Part shown: positions 17,842-29,638 of the stretch, piece after piece
Layout of the letters: the number at the start of each line of letters is the position of its first letter
How positions within the stretch are numbered: the first letter of the stretch is position 1
Assembly: GCA_017546725.1 (NCBI GenBank)
Contig: JAFYRX010000064.1
Span: 1-47,901 of the forward strand
DNA length: 47,901 nt
Direction of reading: 5' to 3'
DNA from: Alistipes sp.
GTDB lineage: Bacteria; Bacteroidota; Bacteroidia; Bacteroidales; Rikenellaceae
The notes under the pieces: generated by a model
Databases searched by the model: none
Told to the model about the DNA's origin: nothing
What the model saw: the letters and a program-made list of their open reading frames with translations, nothing else
Program-made: the position numbers and the translations under genes

Positions 17842-17979
17842 TATGCACCTCTAACGGCATCTTTTTCTGCCGAAAAAAAATCAAAAAATTTATCTTTTGT
17901 TGCTATTTGATTTTCAGCGACTTTTGGGGTGACGCTTGGCTATCTGTGTTAATTTATTGAATTTTTATTGTCAAAATAC

Positions 17980-18010
17980 TTGACAAACGGGGTTTCGTGT
18001 ATTATATTTG
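17980..18010 (+). promoter_or_regulatory. Promoter of the phage-like structural cluster
   Basis: TTGAC at 17980-17984, an 18-base spacer, then TATATTTG at 18003-18010. It fits the Bacteroidota housekeeping consensus, so the host sigma factor could transcribe the cluster. Expected transcript start is about 18016. Confidence 0.65.
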
Positions 18011-18121
18011 CATTGTCGTTAGTGACAAACAAAACCGTAAAATAGGGCGCAGGATATAGTTTAAGCCTGATTTGCAGATGTTTTAACACGAAACGACAGC
18101 GAATAAATCAAAGATAAATTA

Positions 18122-18268
18122 TTGAACATCGAAAATTCATATAAAATATGCCGAACAGAGCGAAATATCCACCGCACCGACATCGGAGTGCAACTGCCAG
18201 GAGTAGGCAGCGGCAGATATGAACATATCAACATAGATGGACGGAGAGTTTTCAACAAAGAGTTATGA
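18122..18268 (+). CDS. Possible small leader ORF (48 residues, TTG start)
   Basis: An open frame from TTG 18122 to TGA 18268 whose C-terminal part reads GVQLPGVGSGRYEHINIDG, which is protein-like rather than repeat-like. There is no ATG start, no known family and no clear ribosome site. It may be a remnant, a leader peptide or chance. Confidence 0.25.
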   Translation: MNIENSYKICRTERNIHRTDIGVQLPGVGSGRYEHINIDGRRVFNKEL

Positions 18269-18401
18269 GGGTTTAACGACCTATATAACAACAGATTACA
18301 TACTCTCTCCAACTATCAATCAACACAATATTAACCACCATTAACAATTTTATCAACACAAAGGCCGATTGCTCGGCCCGACCTTTAACACCCTGAAGAT
18401 T

Positions 18402-18806
18402 ATGAATCGCACCTTTTTGATTAATGCCATCGAGAGCATTGCGACGGCCGACGGCTACTCGTTCTACACCGACAGCGAAGAGAGAACATCGGAGCAGATT
18501 AAATCGTACCCTGCAGCGTGGTTACTACCTCCGAAATTTCAGCAGATGGAGGGCCGCAAACACGGCAAGGTGACCTACAGCCTGACACTCCACGCAATGG
18601 ATGCAGGGGCTAAACTATCACCCGCCCAGCGTGAGCAGACGTGGTCACGTCTGGAGGAGGAGTTGATAGAGATGTTCTCAAAACTATCGGACACAGAACG
18701 AGTCATAGCCGTCGAGAAACTCAAAATTCAACACTCGTCACTCTCGCTCACAACTCACGGAGAGGTGGCAGCAACGGCTACGGCCGATGTAGTAACCTTC
18801 TTCTAA
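18402..18806 (+). CDS. Small phage structural-type protein, first gene of the cluster
   Basis: 134 residues from ATG 18402. No signal peptide or membrane segment. Mixed alpha/beta protein with NAIESIATADGYSFYTDSEE at the start and a C-terminal beta stretch (SSLSLTTHGEVAATATADVVTFF). Size and position just before two tail-type genes would suit a tail-completion or neck protein, but no family motif is recognised and this is inference. It is separated by 38 bases from the next gene, in what looks like one transcript from the promoter at 18003. Confidence 0.65.
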   Translation: MNRTFLINAIESIATADGYSFYTDSEERTSEQIKSYPAAWLLPPKFQQMEGRKHGKVTYSLTLHAMDAGAKLSPAQREQTWSRLEEELIEMFSKLSDTERVIAVEKLKIQHSSLSLTTHGEVAATATADVVTFF

Positions 18807-18844
18807 CGAGCAACTAAACCACACACAAAAACCACAAAAAAACT

Positions 18845-19813
18845 ATGAAATTCACATCTATTCCAGAGGCCTACTCCTCATTTAACTCGCCACTCATCTA
18901 TGAGTTCGACAGCGAACAGGAGGCCAAAGACCTGTTGGTCGAGATAACCGACCTAACGACAAACGAGGTCATAGGCCGCAAGAGACTCTATGCCGCAACC
19001 GTCGGCAACATCGACATCGCCCCCTATGTGCGTCGCAGGGCCGTAGCACATCTGCCCGAGAACGTAGCATCGTGCGGGCTTGTGGAGATTGGCTCGCAGA
19101 TAAAGGTGCGTGTAACCATTGATGGCACAGCATCATCGTCACGCACTTTCATTGCGGCCAAAGTCGCTCCCGAAACCCATTACACACTTCTCACACACCA
19201 ACTGCTGCAACGCACGATGGCCCGCGACGAGTTCGACCTAATCGCATATTTCGCAATGCCCGATGCGGTTGTCGAGGTCGTGGTGGAGGCTACGGGCAAG
19301 GAGCGTGAGAGCATCACGATTGAGGCTGCGGGCGGTCATCGCTGCATAGCCGTAACGGCAGCCACGTTTGATGAGGCGACGGAGGAGTTGAGAGTGAAAA
19401 TAGTAATCGACGGCGAGATAGCCTCAACCATCGACTATGAGATTAAGCCCAACCTTAACGGGGCACGTCGCATAGCGTGGATAAACCGAGAACATTCGCC
19501 CGAGATTTACACCTTCCCACTACGCAAGGCCGTACTCATAGAGGCCACACGCAAACGCATAGCGACCATTTGGGGCAAGGAGGCCGCCGAGGTGGAACAT
19601 CACAACGAACTCAAATTGTTGTCGGCCTACGAGCCCGAGCGACAGATTGAAGCCCTGCAGGAGATTGTCGCCAGCCCCAAAGTTTGGCTCATAAAGGGCG
19701 GAGAGGTGCAGAACATCGACCTCAGGACCGACCGACTGTTCCACACATTGAATGAGGGTATGGGCATCGTAGAACTCGACATCCGCAGCGCAGAGGAGGG
19801 CGCAACATTATGA
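18845..19813 (+). CDS. Phage tail-associated protein, unknown family
   Basis: 322 residues, no signal peptide, rich in beta-strand patterns with repeated short Ig-like units (about 20-115, 120-205, 210-235). It overlaps the next gene by 4 bases (ATGA), so the two are translationally coupled. Proteins of this size preceding a large hub-like protein occur in Bacteroidales prophages, which supports a tail or baseplate role; exact function is not known. Frame fully open, no sign of decay. Confidence 0.65.
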   Translation: MKFTSIPEAYSSFNSPLIYEFDSEQEAKDLLVEITDLTTNEVIGRKRLYAATVGNIDIAPYVRRRAVAHLPENVASCGLVEIGSQIKVRVTIDGTASSSRTFIAAKVAPETHYTLLTHQLLQRTMARDEFDLIAYFAMPDAVVEVVVEATGKERESITIEAAGGHRCIAVTAATFDEATEELRVKIVIDGEIASTIDYEIKPNLNGARRIAWINREHSPEIYTFPLRKAVLIEATRKRIATIWGKEAAEVEHHNELKLLSAYEPERQIEALQEIVASPKVWLIKGGEVQNIDLRTDRLFHTLNEGMGIVELDIRSAEEGATL

Positions 19814-22212
19814 GGACAAGAGTAAAAATTGACGGCCGTTACTGCGACCTCGATGAGGATTTCTCGCCACCGAGAAACATCGTTGAGTTCTCCGATGAGG
19901 AGTACGCTCAAGGGGGCTCGCGCCGGGCGCATAAGGTGAAGATTACCCTGCCCTCATCCCCGACGAATGATGAGATTGCGGGCTTTGCGGCAGATGCCTT
20001 CGCGGCGGAGAGTTTCAACGCCGAGCCTCACACAGCCTCTATAGAGGTAGATGGGGTGGAGTTATTCAGCGGAGAGGCGGCTCTGGCGGCTATATCGCAC
20101 AAGGGTGAGGAGTTGCGATATGAGGTCATAATAACACGACAAGGCGATAACTGGCGAGCGATGTTGCACGACAGGCAACTGGCCGAGACCTCACTCGACT
20201 TCAACGCTACGCTCAACGGCGACACCATTGGTAAGAGTTGGCAGAAGGGCCGTGTGGTGATATTTCTGCCCGTACACTTCGACCAATACATCGCACCGTA
20301 TGACCAGCAGAGCCTCTATCCGCCTAATCACACTATGGGTGTCGAGAGTTATATGCCTTTTATCTCGGTGGCGGCCCTGCTAAAGCAGATTTTTGCCGAT
20401 GCGGGTTACGAGGTGGTAAGCCAATTCGTCGAGAGCGACCTGTTTCAAAAACTCCACATCTCGGGGCGTTATGAGCAGGCGGGCAAATCATCCGACAGAC
20501 TCGATGCAATAGCGGGATTCTGCGCAGGCCGCAAGGTCGAGGCTACCACTACGGCCGACTCCGTAGGGCGAGCCTATATGTCACAGGCTGTGCTTAACAG
20601 TTCGCTGGGCTCGTTTGTCGATACCGCCGACAGCGATGTTGCGCCCGACCTCTATGACAACAGCCGAGCGTTGGATGTCGAGGCCATACGCCTTAACTAC
20701 AAGTCGCCGATAAGCACCACCGTGAGGTTTGAGTTGCTGATAAACTACACCACCGACTACATCATCGCCACACGCCAAAGGCTCAAATGCTTCGACAGCA
20801 TCTACCTGGGGCCCAACTGCGATATGACCATCAAGGTGGCAAACCCGCTGAAGGACAGACGCAACCAGATGCAGCCCAACACGACCTATCACTGCATAAT
20901 CTTTGACCACGCTACGGGCGACAGATACCGCATCATAGCGACAACAACGCAGGGTGAGGTCATCGTACAGGAGTTTGCTGCACGTTCGGCAAAGGTGACA
21001 ATGCCAACAGGGCTGACGAGTGCCGAATGCCGTTTGGAGGTGAAGGACAGGTATGGCGACTTTGTACCTTATGGCAACGATTGGGCTATGTACGACGGCT
21101 TTGTCGAGGATAGAGGCACGACGGATGTCACGATGAGGGTATCGACCACCCCCGAAGAGTTGGGGCCATCCGTCACGCGATACTTCGATATGATGTATCT
21201 CTACGGAGCCGAGCAGGGACAGAGCATCACGCTGAAGAGCGATTGCCGTTTGCGAACAATCTTTTCGCCTACGCCTTCGCTGGGCTCTGCGCTCACTTTG
21301 CCCGATATTATGCACTACGACTGTACGCAGGAGGAGTTTGTCGATGCTCTGCAACAACTCTTCAACCTGAGAATCTGCGTGCAGGGAGGTAAGGTCTATA
21401 TCGAGCCAAAAGGCGACTTCTACAGCGGGCAGGAGTGTGACCTGAGCGACCGCATAGTACTCTCGGAGGAGATTCGGGCCGAGGAGTTGGCGGCAGAACA
21501 TCGCTCGACACTGCAACTCGGCTACCGTGCAGAGAGCAATGGTGTGGTCGATAGATTCAACAACGCCACAGGGCAGAAGTTGGGGCGCTGGAGCATCGAC
21601 TGTCAATCGTCGCTCGCCGAGCAGGGTATCGAGCGCAACAACAACCCGCTCTTTTGCCCTACGTTATCGGCTACGGGGATTCTTGCCTCGGCACCTTCGG
21701 CGGCCTTGTTGCAGGTGGGTGACCGCGACAGCGAGGAGCAGGGTGATAGCGTAATGCGAATAGTACGTTACGAGGGTACGCAGTCTTTGCGAGGCAGTGA
21801 ACGCTGGGTATTTCCCACCTTTGGCTCGACATATCCGTTAGCGGCATTTCACTACCCCGCAGGGCAGACCGAGAACGACGGTGCGGCCATAGTGGGAGAT
21901 ACCAAAGCCGCAGGACCTGCAGAGCCTTTCACCCTGTGCTTCGAGTCGAGAGATGGTGCAGAGGGGTTAAAGACCTATTACGAAGAGGAACTATCGACAT
22001 TAGCGCGACGACGCAGAATGCGCGTAGGATTGAGGGTAAGTCCCGAGGAGTTGCAACAACTCACCGATTATGAGGCTGCGGAGCCTTCACGTCGTTCGCT
22101 TTTCAGATTGGGACTCGGGCAGAAGGCTCTCTACCGTTTGTATGGGATAGAGGGTTATGATGCCGCGACAGGGGTGGCCTACTGCGTAATGGAGAGGACG
22201 GAGAGAGATTAA
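19810..22212 (+). CDS. Large tail hub/baseplate-type phage protein
   Basis: 800 residues, the largest protein of the cluster. The start at 19810 is fixed by the ATGA overlap. The N-terminal part (VKIDGRYCDLDEDFSPPRNIVEFSD) is followed by a region resembling tail hub proteins that process coordinates in domains (about 60-260), and long beta-rich stretches up to residue 560 (VGRAYMSQAVLNSS, LRICVQGGKVYIEPKGDFYSG). No hydrolase motif or tape-measure-like helix is seen. Role in tail assembly or host contact is inference from size, composition and neighbours. Confidence 0.65.
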   Translation: MRTRVKIDGRYCDLDEDFSPPRNIVEFSDEEYAQGGSRRAHKVKITLPSSPTNDEIAGFAADAFAAESFNAEPHTASIEVDGVELFSGEAALAAISHKGEELRYEVIITRQGDNWRAMLHDRQLAETSLDFNATLNGDTIGKSWQKGRVVIFLPVHFDQYIAPYDQQSLYPPNHTMGVESYMPFISVAALLKQIFADAGYEVVSQFVESDLFQKLHISGRYEQAGKSSDRLDAIAGFCAGRKVEATTTADSVGRAYMSQAVLNSSLGSFVDTADSDVAPDLYDNSRALDVEAIRLNYKSPISTTVRFELLINYTTDYIIATRQRLKCFDSIYLGPNCDMTIKVANPLKDRRNQMQPNTTYHCIIFDHATGDRYRIIATTTQGEVIVQEFAARSAKVTMPTGLTSAECRLEVKDRYGDFVPYGNDWAMYDGFVEDRGTTDVTMRVSTTPEELGPSVTRYFDMMYLYGAEQGQSITLKSDCRLRTIFSPTPSLGSALTLPDIMHYDCTQEEFVDALQQLFNLRICVQGGKVYIEPKGDFYSGQECDLSDRIVLSEEIRAEELAAEHRSTLQLGYRAESNGVVDRFNNATGQKLGRWSIDCQSSLAEQGIERNNNPLFCPTLSATGILASAPSAALLQVGDRDSEEQGDSVMRIVRYEGTQSLRGSERWVFPTFGSTYPLAAFHYPAGQTENDGAAIVGDTKAAGPAEPFTLCFESRDGAEGLKTYYEEELSTLARRRRMRVGLRVSPEELQQLTDYEAAEPSRRSLFRLGLGQKALYRLYGIEGYDAATGVAYCVMERTERD

Positions 22213-22271
22213 TCCGCCTTAAATTAAGTCCGTAAGGAAAAACAATTAAACACAAACCAACAAAAAAACTT

Positions 22272-23366
22272 ATGCAAACAAAAATCACAATCAGAAACGA
22301 AGCCCAGACCTGCTACATCGACATCGAGGGTACAATCGGAGTGCCCGAACAGCATCAGTTCGAGAATGCCTCGTCACGGGTAGCAACCTTCGAGACCTTC
22401 CAACGTGAGGTGGCCCGCATAAGCGAGGTAGCCGCAACGTCGGTGGTGGTGAACATACGCTCGACGGGTGGTGACGTGAACGATGCTCTGCTCATCTATG
22501 AGGCCTTGCAGGGACTCGATGCACGCATTACCACACGCTGCTACGGCTACACCGCCTCGGCAGCTACAATCATCGCACAGGCCGCCGACAAGGGGTGTCG
22601 CGAGATTTCGAGCAACGCGCTCTACCTGATTCACAACTCGATGTGTGCCATCGAGGGCAATGCCTCGACCTTGGAGAGCCGTGCCGAACTCCTTCGCAAG
22701 ACAGATGAAAGATTGGCACACCTCTACGCCCAGCACTCGGAGCGTGATGCGGCAACATTCGCCTGCTTGATGGCCGAGAACAATGGCGAGGGCCGCTGGC
22801 TCACAGCCGAGGAGACGGTAGAGGCTGGCTTGGCCGACAAGATTATCGACAACCTCATTGTAGGCTCGCTGATTCCCGATGCAGAGGATGCAGAGGGTAA
22901 TGCCGATGCTGATGCAACCGCTACGACCTCTGCGGGAGATGAGGCCCTGCCTCAAAACCGAGGAGCAAAGGGCGGCAAGCAGGATGTAAAGAAGGCTGTA
23001 AACCGTGCTGTCGGGGCATTGTTAGGCTATCTGTTGCGCCGATTCTCATACCGCTGGGAGCAGTGGATGGACAACATCCAGCAGAAACGCGAGGAGCGAC
23101 AGCAAGCAGAAGATACGGCAGCAAAGAGTGTGCCTGCCGAGAATCAATCAGCCGAGAGTGTGCCCACGCAGGGGGAGCAATTACCGCAAGCAGCGGCAAC
23201 ACATAAGGCGGCCCAACATCGCTCGGCATTGCTCTTCAGCGAGGGACAGCGACTTTACAAACCCTCGAGAGTGAAGCCCACCGAGGACCCCTCGATGAAC
23301 CAGCCGAACACAGGCTCTAACTTCTCGGCCTACGCCGAGGATGCCAGAGCATTTGGCAGGTATTAG
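22272..23366 (+). CDS. ClpP-like prohead protease with scaffold-like C-terminal extension
   Basis: 364 residues. Residues 1-200 form a ClpP/S14 fold: oxyanion segment STGGDVNDALLIYEALQ (64-80), nucleophile Ser96 in GYTASAAT and His121 in LIHNSM, then GRWLTAEETVEAGLADKI near 175-191. Phage members cut scaffold and capsid proteins during head maturation. Residues 205-364 are low-complexity and Gln/Ala/Glu-rich, with an amphipathic helix (LLRRFSYRWEQWMDNIQ), and could serve as a fused scaffold (inference). It lies 59 bases after the hub gene and is separated from the capsid gene by a repeat block. Confidence 0.85.
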   Translation: MQTKITIRNEAQTCYIDIEGTIGVPEQHQFENASSRVATFETFQREVARISEVAATSVVVNIRSTGGDVNDALLIYEALQGLDARITTRCYGYTASAATIIAQAADKGCREISSNALYLIHNSMCAIEGNASTLESRAELLRKTDERLAHLYAQHSERDAATFACLMAENNGEGRWLTAEETVEAGLADKIIDNLIVGSLIPDAEDAEGNADADATATTSAGDEALPQNRGAKGGKQDVKKAVNRAVGALLGYLLRRFSYRWEQWMDNIQQKREERQQAEDTAAKSVPAENQSAESVPTQGEQLPQAAATHKAAQHRSALLFSEGQRLYKPSRVKPTEDPSMNQPNTGSNFSAYAEDARAFGRY

Positions 23367-23416
23367 GGTTTGGGGCGAGCCCAAATAATTCAGAATTCAA
23401 AATTTAGAATTCAGAA

Positions 23417-23474
23417 TTACAGACTCCTCCGTCACACCTTGCGGTGTGCCACCTCCTCTAACTTAGAGGAGGAA
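23417..23474 (+). repeat. Repeat A copy 10
   Basis: Inner stem is CACACC/GGTGTG, a third stem type; outer stem standard. Confidence 0.85.
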
Positions 23475-23494
23475 ATAGTTGGACTTCCAATTTT

Positions 23495-23538
23495 AGAGAC
23501 TCCAATCAAAATCGACAAGCGATTTTGTGGAGTGACGT
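23495..23538 (+). repeat. D repeat copy
   Basis: Edges AGAGACTCCAATC and GTGGAGTGACGT, inner arms AAAATCG/CGATTTT. Confidence 0.8.
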
Positions 23539-23549
23539 GAAGAAATAAA

Positions 23550-23598
23550 AATTCTCCCTCTGTGTCAGAGGGAGTACCCTTTAGGGGGAGGGAGTCAG
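23550..23598 (+). repeat. Repeat C copy 4
   Basis: Variant arms CTCCCTCTGTG and CAGAGGGAG, pairing kept; then TACCCTTTAGGGGGAGGGAG. Confidence 0.8.
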
Positions 23599-23641
23599 TA
23601 AAACAACAAAAAAAACATTAACCACAAAAAAACTTTTTATT

Positions 23642-24643
23642 ATGTCAAACATTATTGTAAACCCAAAGAACTACACAGGTCACGAACTTGAAACAATCTT
23701 TTTCCGCCCGTTGCTTTCGGGCCCCACTGCCGAGCAGTTGGGTATCCGCATCTTGTACAATATGCCGATGCCTACCGTAGTGCAGATGTGGGACCACTCG
23801 AACAACGTGCTAAAGCCCTTTGACGAGAACTCATCGTGGAGCGGCGGCTCGAAGTCAACCCACTACCAAAAGACAATCCCTATGGCACGTGTGAAGGCCG
23901 AGAACGCATTCTCGGCAAGCGACTACTTCTCGACAATCTTCGAACTCATCACCAACCGCGCCGACATAAATATGGAGGATTTGACAGGTACCGAGTTGGA
24001 GGCTGCCGAGACCGAGTTGTTCCGTCGTGCCATTGCCGAGAGCATCCGTATGAATCTCTGGTTGGGCGACAAGGGTGGCTCTTATGAGACAGGCTACACA
24101 AGTTTCGACGGCTTATTGAAGTTGGTAGCCGAGCGCGTGAAGAACAACAACTTCTACTACGCAAAGCCCAACCTCGATGCCCACTTGGGCGATTATCTGG
24201 TGTCGGAGATTTTCGACCTGATGGTAACCAACGCAAGTCCCCGCCTGAAGGGCCTCTACAACGAGGGCGAGGTGGCATTCTTCGTGTCGCCCTACATCTA
24301 CACTCTCTATGAGCAGTACCTCAACACCAACTTCGGTGCGGCAGCATACGGCGACTTGCAGAACGGCCGCCGCTGCTTGATGTATCGTGGCTTCCCCATC
24401 GTGGAGATTAACCTCGAGCCCGCAATCTCGTCATCGAAGTTGTCGCAGGACTTCATCCTTTTCACCGACCGCCGCAACCTTGTGATGGCCGTAAATACTG
24501 CCGACAGCCCCGGCTCGGAGGTACGTATGTGGTACAACCCCGACGAGATGGAGAACCGTCAGCGTGCAGTGTTTGCCATCGGTTGCGAGGTGTTGGATGA
24601 TGAGTTGGTATGTGCATTCATCAACCAGGAGGAAGAGGAGTAG
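23642..24643 (+). CDS. Major capsid protein, HK97-type fold (predicted)
   Basis: 333 residues, soluble, no signal peptide. Resembles Bacteroidales phage major capsid proteins in size and composition: an N-terminal arm (ELETIFFRPLLSGPTAEQLG), a spine-like central helix region (about 95-135), the segment YTSFDGLLKLV, and a C-terminal part with WYNPDEMENRQRAVFAIGCEVLDDELVCAF. Position after the protease gene fits the usual protease-capsid order. It starts a second transcription unit after a repeat block. The assignment rests on family resemblance and context and has not been tested by structure. Confidence 0.8.
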   Translation: MSNIIVNPKNYTGHELETIFFRPLLSGPTAEQLGIRILYNMPMPTVVQMWDHSNNVLKPFDENSSWSGGSKSTHYQKTIPMARVKAENAFSASDYFSTIFELITNRADINMEDLTGTELEAAETELFRRAIAESIRMNLWLGDKGGSYETGYTSFDGLLKLVAERVKNNNFYYAKPNLDAHLGDYLVSEIFDLMVTNASPRLKGLYNEGEVAFFVSPYIYTLYEQYLNTNFGAAAYGDLQNGRRCLMYRGFPIVEINLEPAISSSKLSQDFILFTDRRNLVMAVNTADSPGSEVRMWYNPDEMENRQRAVFAIGCEVLDDELVCAFINQEEEE

Positions 24644-24665
24644 GAATTAAAAACAGCGTAAGAAG

Positions 24666-25127
24666 ATGACCGAAAATAAGTTTTACAAACCTGTGGGCGG
24701 CATCTTATCGGCAGAGTTATTCTTCGCCTCGGAGGTTAACACCGCAGGGGATTTACCCGAAGGCAAAGGGGTGGCCGTAGAGTTAATCGACGATGAATCG
24801 ACGTATGAGGAACTTTTTTCGGCCAGCAACGGCTTGGTGAGCGTGCAACACACGCTCACCCTTGTCGCCGACAGGAACAGGGCTAACGAATGGCTGCAAA
24901 GAGAGTTCTTGGAGCGTTGCTCGACGGAGGGTGCGGTGGCACACATCGTCTTCGCCAGCAAGGAGGAGATTAAGGTTGGCTACTGCCCACGCTTTCTTGT
25001 CGAGCAGGCTTTGCGTCTGGACTCGCTGCGATTCTCATCGGGCGACAGGCTCAACGCCTCGCCCCGAGTGACGCTCACGCTGAAGTGCCACGACACCCAC
25101 TCGGCTATAGGAATTCAGAATGCATAA
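24666..25127 (+). CDS. Phage structural protein of unknown type next to the capsid gene
   Basis: 153 residues, 22 bases downstream of the capsid gene. Beta-rich, with GGILSAELFFASEV at the start, a basic middle (LVADRNRANEWLQREFLERC) and a C-terminal strand run (NASPRVTLTLKCHDTH). No catalytic motif is evident. Head decoration, neck or tail-tube roles would all fit its size and place. It ends directly at repeat C copy 5. Confidence 0.6.
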   Translation: MTENKFYKPVGGILSAELFFASEVNTAGDLPEGKGVAVELIDDESTYEELFSASNGLVSVQHTLTLVADRNRANEWLQREFLERCSTEGAVAHIVFASKEEIKVGYCPRFLVEQALRLDSLRFSSGDRLNASPRVTLTLKCHDTHSAIGIQNA

Positions 25128-25128
25128 A

Positions 25129-25179
25129 AATTCTCCCTCTAAGGTAGAGGGAGTACCCTTTAGGGGGAGGGAGTCTGCT
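25129..25179 (+). repeat. Repeat C copy 5
   Basis: Begins at the very end of the preceding gene; arms CTCCCTCTAA and TAGAGGGAG. Confidence 0.8.
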
Positions 25180-25194
25180 TTGAGATGAAAGATG

Positions 25195-25252
25195 GACAGA
25201 CTCCTCCGTCACACCTTTGGTGTGCCACCTCCTCTAACTTAGAGGAGGAATT
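25195..25252 (+). repeat. Repeat A copy 11
   Basis: Inner arms CACACC and GGTGTG; joined to C5 by a short spacer. Confidence 0.85.
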
Positions 25253-25263
25253 AATTTGAAATA

Positions 25264-25478
25264 ATTACCGTGCGAAGCCTAATCGCAGCAGATGAATTTT
25301 AGGAAATAGGATAAGCGGAGAAATTTCCGTTAAAAAACGGAGAACTTTTCACGTAGTAAAAGTGCGGATGCATCCGTTTTAGGAAATTTATTCGGTTAGC
25401 CCCTAAAATTTATCACTGCGCCGCTTTTTGTTCACCTTTTTACGGCTAAAAAGGTGAATAAGACACGAAGTGGATTAA
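25264..25478 (+). repeat. Repeat B copy 3
   Basis: Full-length B from CCGTGCGAAGCC to CACGAAGTGGATTAA. The inner segment reads GTGCGGATGCATCC where most copies have ACGCGAAGGCGTCC; the hairpin pairing is kept. Confidence 0.9.
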
Positions 25479-25526
25479 GTAGGGAGGGAGTAAAGAGCCT
25501 GAACGTGGGAGATTAATCCGCTACGC

Positions 25527-25585
25527 GGCTTTTCACTGCTACGGCTCGGCAAAGTATGTAAACATACTCTGCTCTCGCCTTAATC
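25527..25585 (+). repeat. Repeat F copy 3 (partial)
   Basis: CGGCTCGGCAAAGTATG with arms TATGT and ACATA; the end of F is missing. Confidence 0.55.
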
Positions 25586-25588
25586 GCA

Positions 25589-25630
25589 ACTTTCCAATCA
25601 AAATCGACAAGCGATTTTGTGGAGTGACGT
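25589..25630 (+). repeat. D repeat copy
   Basis: Left edge altered to TTTCCAATC; right edge GTGGAGTGACGT intact. Confidence 0.7.
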
Positions 25631-25722
25631 ATTCTACAAAAGAAAATTTTGAATTATGCATTATGCAATTTTGAATTTCATTGGCCCTTCAAAAACCAAC
25701 AAACACTAAAAACCAAAACATT

Positions 25723-26952
25723 ATGGAACAGACAAAGACAAAAAGCCTTGTGGCGGTGGGTAATCGCAAGCCTGAGCCTCTGTTTGCACTCTCGCCACAA
25801 GAGGTGCGCAGTGACAAATTCTGGCGCTGGGGCGACGACAATATGATGCCTTATGCGCTGTCGCTGATGTCACGCCGCTCGACCACACACCGCCGCATCA
25901 TAAACGACAAGGCCGACTACATAGCAGGCAAGGGCTTCTCCTACGACGAAAGTGAGCCTCTGCTCGGATTCCTTGTCGGTCGGGCCAATGGCGAGGGCGA
26001 GTCGTTGCGCACAATACTCTATCGCCTGGCCTTCGACAAGGCACTGATGGGCAACGCCTTTCTGGAGGTGGTGACCGACGATAAGCACTCGACACTCTCA
26101 CTCTACCATCAGGATGCCGCGACGTGCCGCATCACACGCGACTCGCAACACGTATGGCTACACCACAATTGGAATCAATTCAAGGAGGATGAGGCACGAC
26201 TGCTACCCCTCTATCCACTCTTTGAGCGACAGGAGGATGGCTCGCTACGCACCATTGTTCACTACAAGGAGTATGAGCCTATGTTCACCCACTACGGCGT
26301 GCCGAAGTACATAGCAGGTATGGGTGTCTCGGCCATAGCCTACAAGACCGATTGCTGGAACATCTCGCGACTCGATAACTCGTTCCAACTCTCGGGTGTG
26401 ATGATGCTCGATGCATCGACCGACAGCGAGGCCGAGACCGAACGCATAGTGCGTGCTGCCGAGCAACGCTTTGCGGGCAACCCCGGGCAGGTGATGTTCG
26501 TCATCCGCGAGGGTGCCGAGAGCGACAACTCGAAGTTCATACCCGTAGAGTCGCACAACGAGGGCGACTGGTCGGCACTGCACGACCAAGCGACTACCGA
26601 CATAGTGATTGCCCACTCGTGGTTCCGCTCGCTCAGCGGATTGGACTACTCGGCGGGCTTCAGCGCAGAGCGCATCCTGCACGAATATGAGGTGGCGCTG
26701 AACACAGTCATCCTGGCCGAGCAGGAGGAGTTGATAGCCCCCATAAAGCGACTGATGCAAGAGGTCTTGGGGATAAATCCCACATCGCTGGAGATTGTGA
26801 ATCGCCCGCCGACACGCTCTAAACCCATCTATATGAAGGTATGGGAGGCTCGCAAGGCCGATGGTCTGGAGTATGACGAGCAGGATGAGCGTCAGCAGGC
26901 CTGGCTTTCGGAGATAACAAAGTACAACGTAACAAAGATTAATCAGGAGTAA
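25723..26952 (+). CDS. Phage portal protein
   Basis: 409 residues from ATG 25723; the longer frame from TTG 25681 is rejected because 25723 has an A-rich leader and a normal start. Portal rings form the DNA entry vertex of the head. The portal-type pattern includes the N-terminal clip/stem with RSTTHRRIINDKADYIAGKGF, the central LAFDKALMGNAFLEVV, the HSWFRSLSGLDYSAGFS segment near 310 and the C-terminal helix QEELIAPIKRLMQEVLG. Gene order is unusual: in typical phages the portal precedes protease and capsid, and here it follows them. It starts the third block of the cluster. Confidence 0.85.
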   Translation: MEQTKTKSLVAVGNRKPEPLFALSPQEVRSDKFWRWGDDNMMPYALSLMSRRSTTHRRIINDKADYIAGKGFSYDESEPLLGFLVGRANGEGESLRTILYRLAFDKALMGNAFLEVVTDDKHSTLSLYHQDAATCRITRDSQHVWLHHNWNQFKEDEARLLPLYPLFERQEDGSLRTIVHYKEYEPMFTHYGVPKYIAGMGVSAIAYKTDCWNISRLDNSFQLSGVMMLDASTDSEAETERIVRAAEQRFAGNPGQVMFVIREGAESDNSKFIPVESHNEGDWSALHDQATTDIVIAHSWFRSLSGLDYSAGFSAERILHEYEVALNTVILAEQEELIAPIKRLMQEVLGINPTSLEIVNRPPTRSKPIYMKVWEARKADGLEYDEQDERQQAWLSEITKYNVTKINQE

Positions 26953-26953
26953 T

Positions 26954-27427
26954 ATGGCAGAGTTAATTACAGCCGAAGAGGTGATAGCGATAGCATTCAC
27001 CGACGGCCAATACATTGATGCAGGGGTGATTGCTCGGTGCGACATAGATGCCGCCATAGAGCGCTGGGTAGTGCCCGTCGTGGGCCGAGCCTTGCTGGAG
27101 GCCGTAGCAGAGGGAAAGTATGAGGAGTTGAGGGAGCATTACCTGAAACCCGTCATCGCCCTCTACACACGACAGATAGTGCAACCCCGATTGAACGTCT
27201 CGACCTCGCAAGCGGGCCTGTCCGTCGTAACGACATCCTCACGCAAGGCTGCCGACGAGGCGGCACGCCGCGAGTTGCAACGCTCATTAAAGGCGAGAGC
27301 GAAATTCCTCAGACAACGCCTGGAGGAGTATCTCGATGAGCATAAGGCGGAACTTACGGAGTACGACGAGAAGCAGAACATATTAAAGAGGTGTCGCTGC
27401 GATGGAGGCTTTGTACAGATACATTAA
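26954..27427 (+). CDS. Head-tail connector-type protein (DUF6712-like)
   Basis: 157 residues, 1 base after the portal stop. Helical protein starting AELITAEEVIAIAFTDGQY, with PVVGRALLEAV and a C-terminal arginine/lysine-rich helix (LQRSLKARAKFLRQRLEEY). Its pattern resembles the small adaptor proteins that sit after portal genes in Bacteroidales phages. Overlaps the holin gene by 26 bases, so the two are tightly coupled. Confidence 0.65.
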   Translation: MAELITAEEVIAIAFTDGQYIDAGVIARCDIDAAIERWVVPVVGRALLEAVAEGKYEELREHYLKPVIALYTRQIVQPRLNVSTSQAGLSVVTTSSRKAADEAARRELQRSLKARAKFLRQRLEEYLDEHKAELTEYDEKQNILKRCRCDGGFVQIH

Positions 27428-27827
27428 CGGAGCGGTGGCAGGTGTGGCGGCACTATTTGCGCCTGTCGTGCCACTCATCTGGGCATTGGTGACATTCATC
27501 GGGATAGACTTCCTGACGGGTGTCACCGCCTCACGGGCCGAGAGCCGCCGACAAGGGGCTGAGTGGTATTTCGAGAGTCGTGAAGCGTGGCGTACGGTAG
27601 AGAAGTTGGGGTTCACGATTATAGCGCTGCTGATGGCCTACCTGATAGATACGCTGATGCTCGATTTTCTGGGGCTCAACCTCACCAAACTCTTTGCTGG
27701 GTTTGTCTGCGGAGTGGAGATGTGGTCATTCATAGAGAACGCCTGCCGCATAAGCGATGCCCCGTTGTTGCGCCACGTAAGACGGCTGGTGAGAGTAAAA
27801 CTAAAAGAACAAACCAAGGATTTATGA
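27402..27827 (+). CDS. Phage holin family protein
   Basis: 141 residues with two or three membrane segments (about 8-38, 65-88, and a weaker one near 88-105) and the holin-4-type motif VTFIGIDFLTGVTASRAES between them, followed by a basic cytoplasmic tail. Holins open the inner membrane so that lysins reach peptidoglycan. It overlaps the lysin gene by 4 bases (ATGA at 27824-27827), the usual lysis-cassette arrangement. Confidence 0.85.
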   Translation: MEALYRYINGAVAGVAALFAPVVPLIWALVTFIGIDFLTGVTASRAESRRQGAEWYFESREAWRTVEKLGFTIIALLMAYLIDTLMLDFLGLNLTKLFAGFVCGVEMWSFIENACRISDAPLLRHVRRLVRVKLKEQTKDL

Positions 27828-28225
27828 GTAGAGGAACAGATAATTGCAACCCCGGCAACATACGCCGTTCGAAGATTCGTTACAAGGGCGAGCGTCACCC
27901 CTCGACAGATGCCGCATTCAAGCAGTTTGAGTCGATGGAGTGGGGCTATAGAGCGATGTTCGTATTGCTGGATACCTACCGAGTACGTTACTCGCTGAAC
28001 ACCCTGCGAGAGATGATTTCACGCTACGCCCCACCCTCGGAAAACCATACGGGGCTCTACATCGATACGGTCTGCAATCTAACGGGCGTAGAGCCTGACG
28101 AGATAATCAACACCCGCTCGCGCAAGACTATGGTGCCGATTGTGGCGGCTATGTCGCGCATAGAGAATGGTTGCGTCGCCGACCGTGATGAGGTGGAGCG
28201 AGGGTTCGACCTTACGGGATTTTGA
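27824..28225 (+). CDS. P5-type phage structural lysin (predicted peptidoglycan hydrolase)
   Basis: 133 residues starting at the ATG in the ATGA overlap; the longer upstream frame is a shadow of the holin. It carries the family pattern NPGNIRRSK, FKQFESMEWGYRAMFVLLDTY, the block LNTLREMISRYAPPSENHTGLYI and VPIVAAMSRIENG. This matches structural protein P5-type predicted lysins of Bacteroidota phages. No signal peptide, consistent with release by the holin. It is the last gene of the cluster. Confidence 0.82.
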   Translation: MSRGTDNCNPGNIRRSKIRYKGERHPSTDAAFKQFESMEWGYRAMFVLLDTYRVRYSLNTLREMISRYAPPSENHTGLYIDTVCNLTGVEPDEIINTRSRKTMVPIVAAMSRIENGCVADRDEVERGFDLTGF

Positions 28226-28279: not shown

Positions 28280-28322
28280 AGAGACTCCAATCAAAATCGA
28301 CTTCTTGATTTTGTGGAGTGAC
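28280..28322 (+). repeat. D repeat copy
   Basis: Edges AGAGACTCCAATC and GTGGAGTGACG with inner arms AAAATCGA and TGATTTT. It lies between the lysin and comEC. Confidence 0.75.
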
Positions 28323-28366
28323 GCAGAATGATGTGGATTGAAGAAAAACTATAAAACCTAAAATTA

Positions 28367-29638
28367 ATGAAACCCTTTGTAGATAGGATACGCCAGCGTT
28401 GGGGTGAGATGACAATGCTACGATTGCTGGTGGCTATTATATTGGGTATTACTTTAGCCGACTGTGTGGCGTTTCCTTTGTGGAGCGTGACAGTCGGCTT
28501 TGTTTTTACGGTAGGTGCAGCCTGGATGTGGCGACACAGGGCAGCGAGCGACCTATATGTGATGGCGGCAGCGGCTCTGGCGGCAATGATGACGATGAAC
28601 ATCAGCGACTCCCAACAGTTTGTATCACGGCAGGCGACAAGGCCCTCGTGGGCAATAAACCTGCAACATAAGGCCGAGCAGAGAATCGAGCAGATGGGGC
28701 TACGGCCCGATGTGGAGGCGCTCGCCAAAGGTGTCACTATAGGCGCACGCAAGGATATAACGCCAGCCCTGCGACAAACGTACACACGCAGTGGTGCAGC
28801 ACATCTGCTGGCAGTATCGGGACTGCACGTCGGGTTTATATTCTTTATGATAAACTTGGCGCTGGGCGGATTGGCACTGATGCGACACGGGCCCATCATA
28901 AGGAGCGGAGTGACGATTATCTGCATCTGGACCTATGCCGCAATGGCTGGAGCAGCACCCTCGATAGTACGTGCCGCATTGATGTTTACGCTGTTGCAGG
29001 TGGCCCTGAGCCTAAGCCGAGGAGGAGCACCACTCAACAGATTGGCAGGTGTGGCGGCCCTGATGCTATTGTGGAATGGCAGATGGTTGTACGATGCGGG
29101 ATTTATGCTCTCGTTCATCTCGGTGGCGGCAATTGTCGAGTGGGGAATACCGCTTACGTGGTGGAGATTCCGACATCGGGACGAGTGGGACAAGGCAAAG
29201 TATGAGGCCGACAAATTGGAACGCCTGCGCTCACGCTGGGGCAGGCTGCAGTTTGCCGCACAATGGGTTGCAAGGAGCATCTGGGCGGCCTTTGCCATAA
29301 GCATTGCAGCGAGCGTAGCCACGATGCCGCTGGTGAGTGAGATGTTCGGCGTGGTGACCTTATGGAGCATCGTTGCAGGGCCTGTGATGGTGTGGCTTTG
29401 CAGCATAGTCGTAGGGGCTACGATGTTGCATATAGTGGTAGGAAGAGGTCTGCTGACCGACCTTTTGGGGTGGGTTGTAGAGTTCTCGGGCAGCACAATG
29501 AACGCCATTGCCCAAGGGTGCGCATCGCACGATATACTCATAGCCGAGCATCAACTGAGCCCGCTATGGAGTGCCGTTTGCTACGCAGGATTTATCTTGC
29601 TGACGATAGTGATGTGGGGCACAGAGAAGAGGAGATAA
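28367..29638 (+). CDS. Short ComEC/Rec2-type DNA uptake channel
   Basis: 423 residues. Three N-terminal membrane segments (about 17-85), a short soluble stretch, then the Competence domain with RSGAAHLLAVSGLHVGFI (about 142-159) and several further membrane segments. ComEC carries single-stranded DNA across the inner membrane in natural transformation. Bacteroidota ComEC proteins usually run to about 650-700 residues; here the N-terminal OB-fold part and the C-terminal metallo-beta-lactamase domain are missing. The frame is open, so it looks like a minimal form rather than a broken gene. It starts 141 bases after the phage-like cluster, on the same strand. Confidence 0.88.
   Translation: MKPFVDRIRQRWGEMTMLRLLVAIILGITLADCVAFPLWSVTVGFVFTVGAAWMWRHRAASDLYVMAAAALAAMMTMNISDSQQFVSRQATRPSWAINLQHKAEQRIEQMGLRPDVEALAKGVTIGARKDITPALRQTYTRSGAAHLLAVSGLHVGFIFFMINLALGGLALMRHGPIIRSGVTIICIWTYAAMAGAAPSIVRAALMFTLLQVALSLSRGGAPLNRLAGVAALMLLWNGRWLYDAGFMLSFISVAAIVEWGIPLTWWRFRHRDEWDKAKYEADKLERLRSRWGRLQFAAQWVARSIWAAFAISIAASVATMPLVSEMFGVVTLWSIVAGPVMVWLCSIVVGATMLHIVVGRGLLTDLLGWVVEFSGSTMNAIAQGCASHDILIAEHQLSPLWSAVCYAGFILLTIVMWGTEKRR

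Follow-up and report, generated by a model that had tools for sequence, protein, structure and literature searches.

Few gene transfer agents (GTAs) are known. Among the closest described systems, the RcGTA-type agents of Alphaproteobacteria are described as having a phage-derived head gene cluster that is inherited with the host, with their genes spread across several loci. FpGTA of the gut anaerobe Faecalibacterium is described as having a structural operon of about 10 kb with ten frames and a split into two operons, FpGTA I holding the large terminase (TerL) with portal and capsid, and operon II the holin and endolysin (PMC12946183). Here we describe a cassette of phage-type particle and lysis genes in an Alistipes-like metagenome-assembled genome of the family Rikenellaceae (74 contigs, 2.14 Mb, 85% complete), located in contig C3 (JAFYRX010000064.1), the whole 47,901 nt of which is the window analysed. 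It shares with RcGTA the inherited, phage-derived head cluster and the dispersal over several loci, a likeness drawn from descriptions, and differs in that the Rikenellaceae TerL is encoded elsewhere, next to a CI-like repressor, that a tape measure is not recognised and that the host belongs to another phylum. With FpGTA it shares the gut anaerobe host, the operon of about 10 kb and ten frames, and the two-part arrangement, but here TerL and repressor lie apart while the lysis genes stay with the head genes. The cassette is probably part of a domesticated, multi-locus, repressor-controlled GTA-like system that is vertically inherited in Rikenellaceae, a reading already offered in a preliminary description of the window and supported by conservation, purifying selection and a second conserved TerL-repressor locus.

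The cassette comprises ten intact frames on the plus strand (18402-28225), in the order g1-g2-g3-ClpP protease-capsid-g6-portal-connector-holin-lysin (Table 1); the preliminary description was right that they are co-directional and intact, but had counted nine. Its assignments for the head and lysis proteins stand as well. The protease matches Pfam CLP_protease (1.5e-27) and head maturation protease PHROGs, and its Ser96 and His121, then described as intact, are kept in 105/105 aligned homologues. The capsid-like protein has its PHROG match and no Pfam match, the portal matches phrog_11226 (2.4e-17) and Pfam Phage_portal at 5e-9, under the family cut-off, and the connector, holin and lysin match DUF6712 (2.6e-11), PF05105 (9e-13) and the endolysin family phrog_873 (4e-41), respectively. 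Phage-derived structural genes, as expected of a GTA, are thus kept in a cellular genome. Family assignments for g1, g2 and g6 that came from weak single-member matches only were dropped. Intergenic gaps measure -26 to +59 nt, save 275 nt ahead of the capsid gene and 595 nt ahead of the portal gene; both large gaps contain near-identical repeats of 52, 41 and 38 nt families (23443-23596, 25124-25259, 23501-23538, 25593-25630), and a related stretch lies downstream of the cassette at 28288-28323.

Outside the cassette, the window's open reading frames (ORFs) match cellular-type families. The 26 other ORFs scanned matched 24 PHROG families (E 1e-5 or better), 8 of them without a named function, and among the remaining 16 there is no terminase, integrase, tape measure or structural family, in line with the earlier statement that integrase and tape measure are not seen. 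The same statement was made of terminase and repressor, which holds for the window, but both are present at a second locus (contig C56) of the same genome. No integrase or replication gene is recognised in the cassette or named in the scan of the 26 other ORFs, no tRNA gene was found in the window, and an Rfam scan at the gathering threshold gave no matches. The block of integrase, replication and full morphogenesis genes that marks a complete prophage is absent from the window, and no such prophage lies just outside the cassette within its 47.9 kb.

Absence from close relatives, a possibility raised earlier, is not what is seen. With genus g1 taken as Alistipes and family f1 as Rikenellaceae, the portal is present in 144/151 genus genomes (counting the window's own genome and a 33-residue fragment in G016), including 59 of the 61 near-complete ones, and in 131/150 family genomes (95/99 near-complete) from 17 of 22 genera. 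Across the order it was found in 9 of 294 genomes, four of them from the window's own family and five from four other families. It is usually single copy, with an additional, diverged copy in G006 and G108 (49% identity) and in G127 (24%). Named portal relatives, for the best 80 of 238 loci, belong to Alistipes and other Rikenellaceae. Window proteins were matched in 111 loci, many of them compared over only about 4 kb, as follows: portal 111, connector 111, capsid 110, lysin 100, holin 96, ClpP 80, g3 70, g6 67, g2 65 and g1 36, with gene order nearly always kept. Capsid, portal and connector were present in 20/20 of a further set of loci from 15 other genera plus one Alistipes, and gene order is mostly kept in the other genera. 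Three of these 20 loci (genera g20 and g26) have no recognisable g1-g3, and two others stop before g1-g3. Since weak g3-like N-termini appear in three g20 genomes, the tail genes may form a separate module in g20 and g26 (L171, L175, L182, L255-L257). Two local rearrangements were also seen: in one single-contig Alistipes genome a frame that we take to be transposase-like (L186:10446-11525) lies between g2 and g3, and in one species a deletion that removed head genes has left an in-frame fusion of the protease with the C-terminus of the connector (L266, G128:C12).

All ten cassette genes are under purifying selection. Nine genes have a median dN/dS of 0.16-0.24, and g1, with a single pair, has 0.12; between the window and L032 the ratio is 0.05-0.12 for seven genes. 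The pairs are not independent and were confined to protein identities of 72-99.5% and dS of 0.05-1.5, conditions that bias the ratio downwards. The dN/dS near 1 that had been considered is therefore not found, the medians being 0.12-0.24, and the view that the cassette is a decaying, functionless prophage remnant is contradicted by this selection. The losses of all or part of the cassette in two near-complete genus genomes (G109 and G128) and the one TerL in two pieces, taken up below, would fit such decay, but retention of the portal in nearly all near-complete family genomes and conservation of promoter and palindrome speak against it, and we give decay hardly any credence.

The second locus, on C56, holds a divergent S24-type repressor, a 98-aa protein (s98) and TerL (C56:16193-17722), at which Terminase_6N is above the cut-off, so that the large terminase expected of a GTA is encoded by the genome. 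It was found by the genome search for a terminase that had been proposed earlier, and the conserved pairing of TerL with a phage-type repressor strengthens the GTA-like idea. TerL was detected in 34/34 portal-positive Rikenellaceae tested (the own genome included) and in 0/19 other Bacteroidales tested. In the 25 Rikenellaceae genomes that gave no full portal match, many of them incomplete, it was present in 11 and not in 14, and in genera g22, g24 and g34 portal and TerL are both absent in 7/7 genomes. At 18 other TerL loci repressor and TerL were matched in all 18 and s98 in 17 (not in L235). The s98 protein (G000:C56:15884-16180, L220) has a conserved PVWWEFHT stretch and was matched only at TerL loci among all loci compared; neither it nor a 131-aa ORF before TerL in L171 has a family match. 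The repressor carries a helix-turn-helix and Peptidase_S24 (7e-13) and matches the phage repressor family phrog_4 (1.9e-33). Its motifs GDSMYP, VKYIQ and EGTAGL, read by eye, are present in 17/20 homologues, and the S24 serine is kept in L175 and lost in L235 and L238; from these features we infer that the repressor may cleave itself and may be under SOS control.

Roughly 2.4 kb separate portal and TerL in G175, and in G198, G216 and G170 the figures are about 11, 18 and 215 kb; in G127, a single-contig genome, and in G249 the two are more than 1 Mb apart. Such dispersal over several loci is expected of a GTA. Genera g20 and g26 have a phrog_38 TerL ahead of the head genes (L171, L175, L182), and in L175 this TerL is accompanied by an S24-type repressor. 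Because TerL stands beside the head genes in these two other genera, the joined state is likely older and the split later. A phrog_2/phrog_3717-type terminase was also considered as the motor of the system (31 genomes; the L157 protein in 25) and rejected, the matches in the 31 genomes being mostly weak; the weak ones, frames of about 340 aa, are presumably RuvB-like ATPases, and the strong ones (G015, G016 and G017; the L157 protein in G127 and G209) are taken as scattered prophages.

The genes could also make a domesticated particle with another job, such as a killing head, a protein shell or a device for programmed lysis, with DNA transfer not being the selected function. The lack of a conserved PF10145 tape measure and of any known tail protein would suit such a particle, as would g1-g3 without known relatives and lysis genes matched in most loci. 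Its weak point is TerL: the Walker A motif (PPQHGKS) and the acidic catalytic residues are invariant in 8 aligned sequences, which together with the presence of the protein in every portal-positive genome tested indicates DNA packaging. Tailocin-type killing particles, moreover, are not known to have capsids. We consider a particle with another job unlikely.

Vertical inheritance was assessed with NusA as host marker in both distance and tree comparisons. Mantel correlations of protein distances in 30 genomes were 0.81 for portal-NusA, 0.79 for TerL-NusA and 0.85 for portal-TerL, with 0/999 permutations as high in each case, and within the genus every pair gave r of 0.56-0.90. Family-wide agreement is weaker for capsid-NusA (r 0.62), capsid-TerL (0.44) and repressor-NusA (0.61, 28 genomes). 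In maximum-likelihood trees of 29 genomes, 16/26 splits are common to portal and TerL, 14/26 to portal and NusA, and 12/26 to TerL and NusA, compared with at most 2 under shuffled labels. The portal and TerL trees and the host-marker tree thus largely agree, and the vertical inheritance and purifying selection expected of a GTA are both found, less strongly for capsid and repressor family-wide.

These results bear on the possibility that a highly successful family of prophages or satellites infects Rikenellaceae again and again and just gives the impression of being core. Such a family would account for the phage-type repressor adjoining TerL and for the second, diverged portals. It would also account for relatives of capsid, portal and connector in three other Bacteroidales families: prophage-like G407, G393 and G527 have relatives of capsid, portal and a DUF6712-type connector in the same order, with no match to g1-g3, ClpP or g6, and the TerL near those of G407 is of a different type (phrog_3717/phrog_2). 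On the 14.8 kb IMG/VR contig 3300000062_000045 (L124), relatives of ClpP, capsid (38% identity), g6, portal and connector in the same order precede genes for a major tail protein, a holin and a phrog_315 endolysin, with no g1-g3 match. Against re-infection stand the mostly single copy, the largely host-like trees of two unlinked loci, the missing integrase and replication genes in cassette and window scan, the separation of TerL from the cassette by more than 1 Mb in G127, and a comEC neighbour shared by 31/70 loci. Nor was a complete phage carrying the cassette found among the IMG/VR and GenBank matches. IMG/VR searches gave 9 loci for the capsid and 8 for the portal, on contigs of 4-15 kb, and additionally a 31 kb contig whose portal match is weak. 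GenBank phage matches were restricted to MT838736, MT838805 and Yersinia phage vB_YenM_324 (two records), the last with a weak match to the portal. Among phages, TerL comes closest to that of Bacteroides phages (48-49% identity), including B40-8 and B124-14 at about 48%, full phage genomes of 45-47 kb in which tblastn reported no relative of portal, capsid or g3. Taken together, re-infection appears very unlikely. As a side observation, MT838736.1 and MT838805.1 (L146, L147) carry parts of an Alistipes-type cassette and were submitted, without annotation, as phage scaffolds from Mexican human faecal samples; the accessions do not appear in the main text of their possible source (PMC8361208) and are not used as evidence.

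Putative control signals link the two loci. The promoter pattern ahead of the cassette, TTGAC ... TATATTTG, which we take to be of the Bacteroidota type, occurs once in the own genome, once in 5/7 relatives and not in the other two, with 0 matches in reversed controls, and every match lies upstream of a cassette by coordinates. In 15/18 repressor-s98 regions of the repressor/TerL loci, a TANNTTTG box is directly preceded by the palindrome TTMAANNNTTKAA (one mismatch allowed), and a matrix made from these loci only places its top and third window matches on either side of the cassette promoter (Table 1). The best site of the whole locus falls inside the 270-base promoter stretch (1.2% of the sequence) in 12/15 cassettes with a first matrix (17 sites, of which two, L221 and L223, are at the wrong promoter) and in 13/15 with a second (16 sites, without L224 and L229), whereas none of 25 column-permuted matrices reached 13, the best giving 9. 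The AT-rich setting accounts for part, not all, of this enrichment. The promoter's own inverted repeat is unlike the palindrome of the repressor locus and was rejected as operator; the site common to both loci adjoins this repeat. Taken on these sites, the cassette and the TerL locus are probably under one repressor.

Between promoter and g1, the window leader contains nine TNAACA on the plus strand and 0 on the minus, where shuffles average 1.16, and its folding beats that of shuffles (z -4.45). In 15 leaders of 236-396 nt there are 88 TNAACA on the sense strand and 4 on the other, with 13 expected; the count was reached by 0/500 shuffles in 10 leaders and by 4 to 16 of 500 in 5. The leader looks like an RNA-level control element. 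Spacings between the repeats recur in several leaders, being 8, then 24, then about 68 nt. An interpretation of the repeats as DnaA boxes was dropped, with no TTATNCACA in the window.

Table 1. Positions of the cassette, its control signals and its downstream neighbour in the window.
Feature	Position	Strand	Basis or remark
Operator-like palindrome	17949..17961	.	Matches repressor/TerL-locus palindrome; rank 3 of 47,889 window positions, matrix from repressor/TerL loci only
Cassette promoter, TTGAC ... TATATTTG	17980..18011	+	Inverted repeat 17968-17986 overlaps; block near-invariant in alignment
Structured leader, nine TNAACA repeats	18012..18401	+	Repeat count vs shuffles, fold z
Operator-like palindrome in leader	18114..18126	.	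Rank 1 of 47,889 window positions
g1, 134 aa, structural candidate	18402..18806	+	Conserved first gene; no family match
g2, 322 aa, structural candidate	18845..19813	+	No family match
g3, 800 aa	19810..22212	+	Tail-hub-like by position only
ClpP-type prohead protease with C-terminal extension	22272..23366	+	Pfam, PHROGs, catalytic residues
Capsid-like protein	23642..24643	+	phrog_1623 4.5e-7; matched in 110/111 loci
g6, 153 aa	24666..25127	+	No family match
Portal protein	25723..26952	+	Alternative ORF start 25681
Head-tail connector candidate (DUF6712)	26954..27427	+	Pfam
Holin (Phage_holin_4_1)	27402..27827	+	Pfam
Lysin (phrog_873 endolysin)	27824..28225	+	PHROGs; ATGA overlap with holin
comEC-like gene	28367..29638	+	141 nt downstream of cassette; frequent cassette neighbour

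A working scheme can be proposed from this arrangement. In most cells, the CI/LexA-like S24 repressor bound to the palindromes would keep TerL and the cassette off, until DNA damage or another signal inactivates it, perhaps via self-cleavage. The dedicated promoter would then transcribe the structured leader and the cassette, procapsids would assemble on the portal and be matured by the ClpP-type protease, and TerL from the second locus would drive DNA into the heads, this being host DNA because there is no phage genome any more. Holin and lysin would let the particles out and, more speculatively still, sister cells might take up the DNA via ComEC. The comEC-like name of the gene downstream of the cassette follows the first description. 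Of 70 loci for which 3.5 kb or more of downstream sequence was available, 31 have a counterpart of this gene within 3 kb downstream on the same strand; 6 have it in another arrangement (overlapping, opposite or placed elsewhere), and in 33 no match was obtained. The putative link between this gene and the cassette is one of position, and uptake of RcGTA is described as using ComEC (PMC10883770). The fullest version of the GTA-like reading, to which we give slightly better than an even chance, is that this is the first GTA of Bacteroidota: ancient in Rikenellaceae, made of a structural and lysis operon and a distant terminase operon, held by one self-cleaving CI/LexA-like repressor that acts on an operator common to both, with a second step of control by a structured RNA leader and a ComEC neighbour for uptake, packaging the DNA of a gut commensal on SOS induction.

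Several observations weigh against a domesticated GTA-like system in Rikenellaceae. Particles and 9 kb DNA have been shown for FpGTA (PMC12946183), whereas the Rikenellaceae system is described here from its genes. In the faecal particle study in the same report, 23/25 GTA-like events are assigned to Ruminococcaceae, Oscillospiraceae and Christensenellaceae, three families of Bacillota, and Alistipes is absent from its main text though Rikenellaceae were among the most abundant families (PMC12946183). Any tail is putative: neither Pfam nor PHROGs nor PDB sequences gave a significant match to g1, g2, g3 or g6, which leaves the tail-type character once given to g1-g3 without backing; g2 and g3 evolve fast; and in a search for a tape measure, also proposed earlier, PF10145 was not conserved, being above cut-off in 3/20 genomes. 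No small terminase subunit (TerS) is recognisable among s98 and the 131-aa ORF of L171, TerL of G114 is in two pieces, and no repressor was found beside TerL in L171 and L182, two g20 loci. The portal is missing from two near-complete genus genomes: in G109 the cassette is gone and only the repressor block was found, TerL being kept, and in G128 capsid and portal are deleted, yet g2, g3, holin and TerL are kept. Distances of the repressor agree poorly family-wide with those of capsid (r 0.19, 24/999) and g3 (r 0.25, 70/999).

Among the matches listed from open-licence PMC papers, no title or abstract opening reports a GTA in Alistipes, Rikenellaceae or Bacteroidota, and the main texts of two GTA overviews contain no word starting with "Bacteroid" (PMC9662315, PMC11841831). 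Alistipes is a cultured gut genus, so that movement of chromosomal DNA by a family-wide particle system would be directly testable there. Comparison across the genera of the family, in the direction that we infer, seems to show stages by which a phage was split into parts that are separately placed and jointly controlled.

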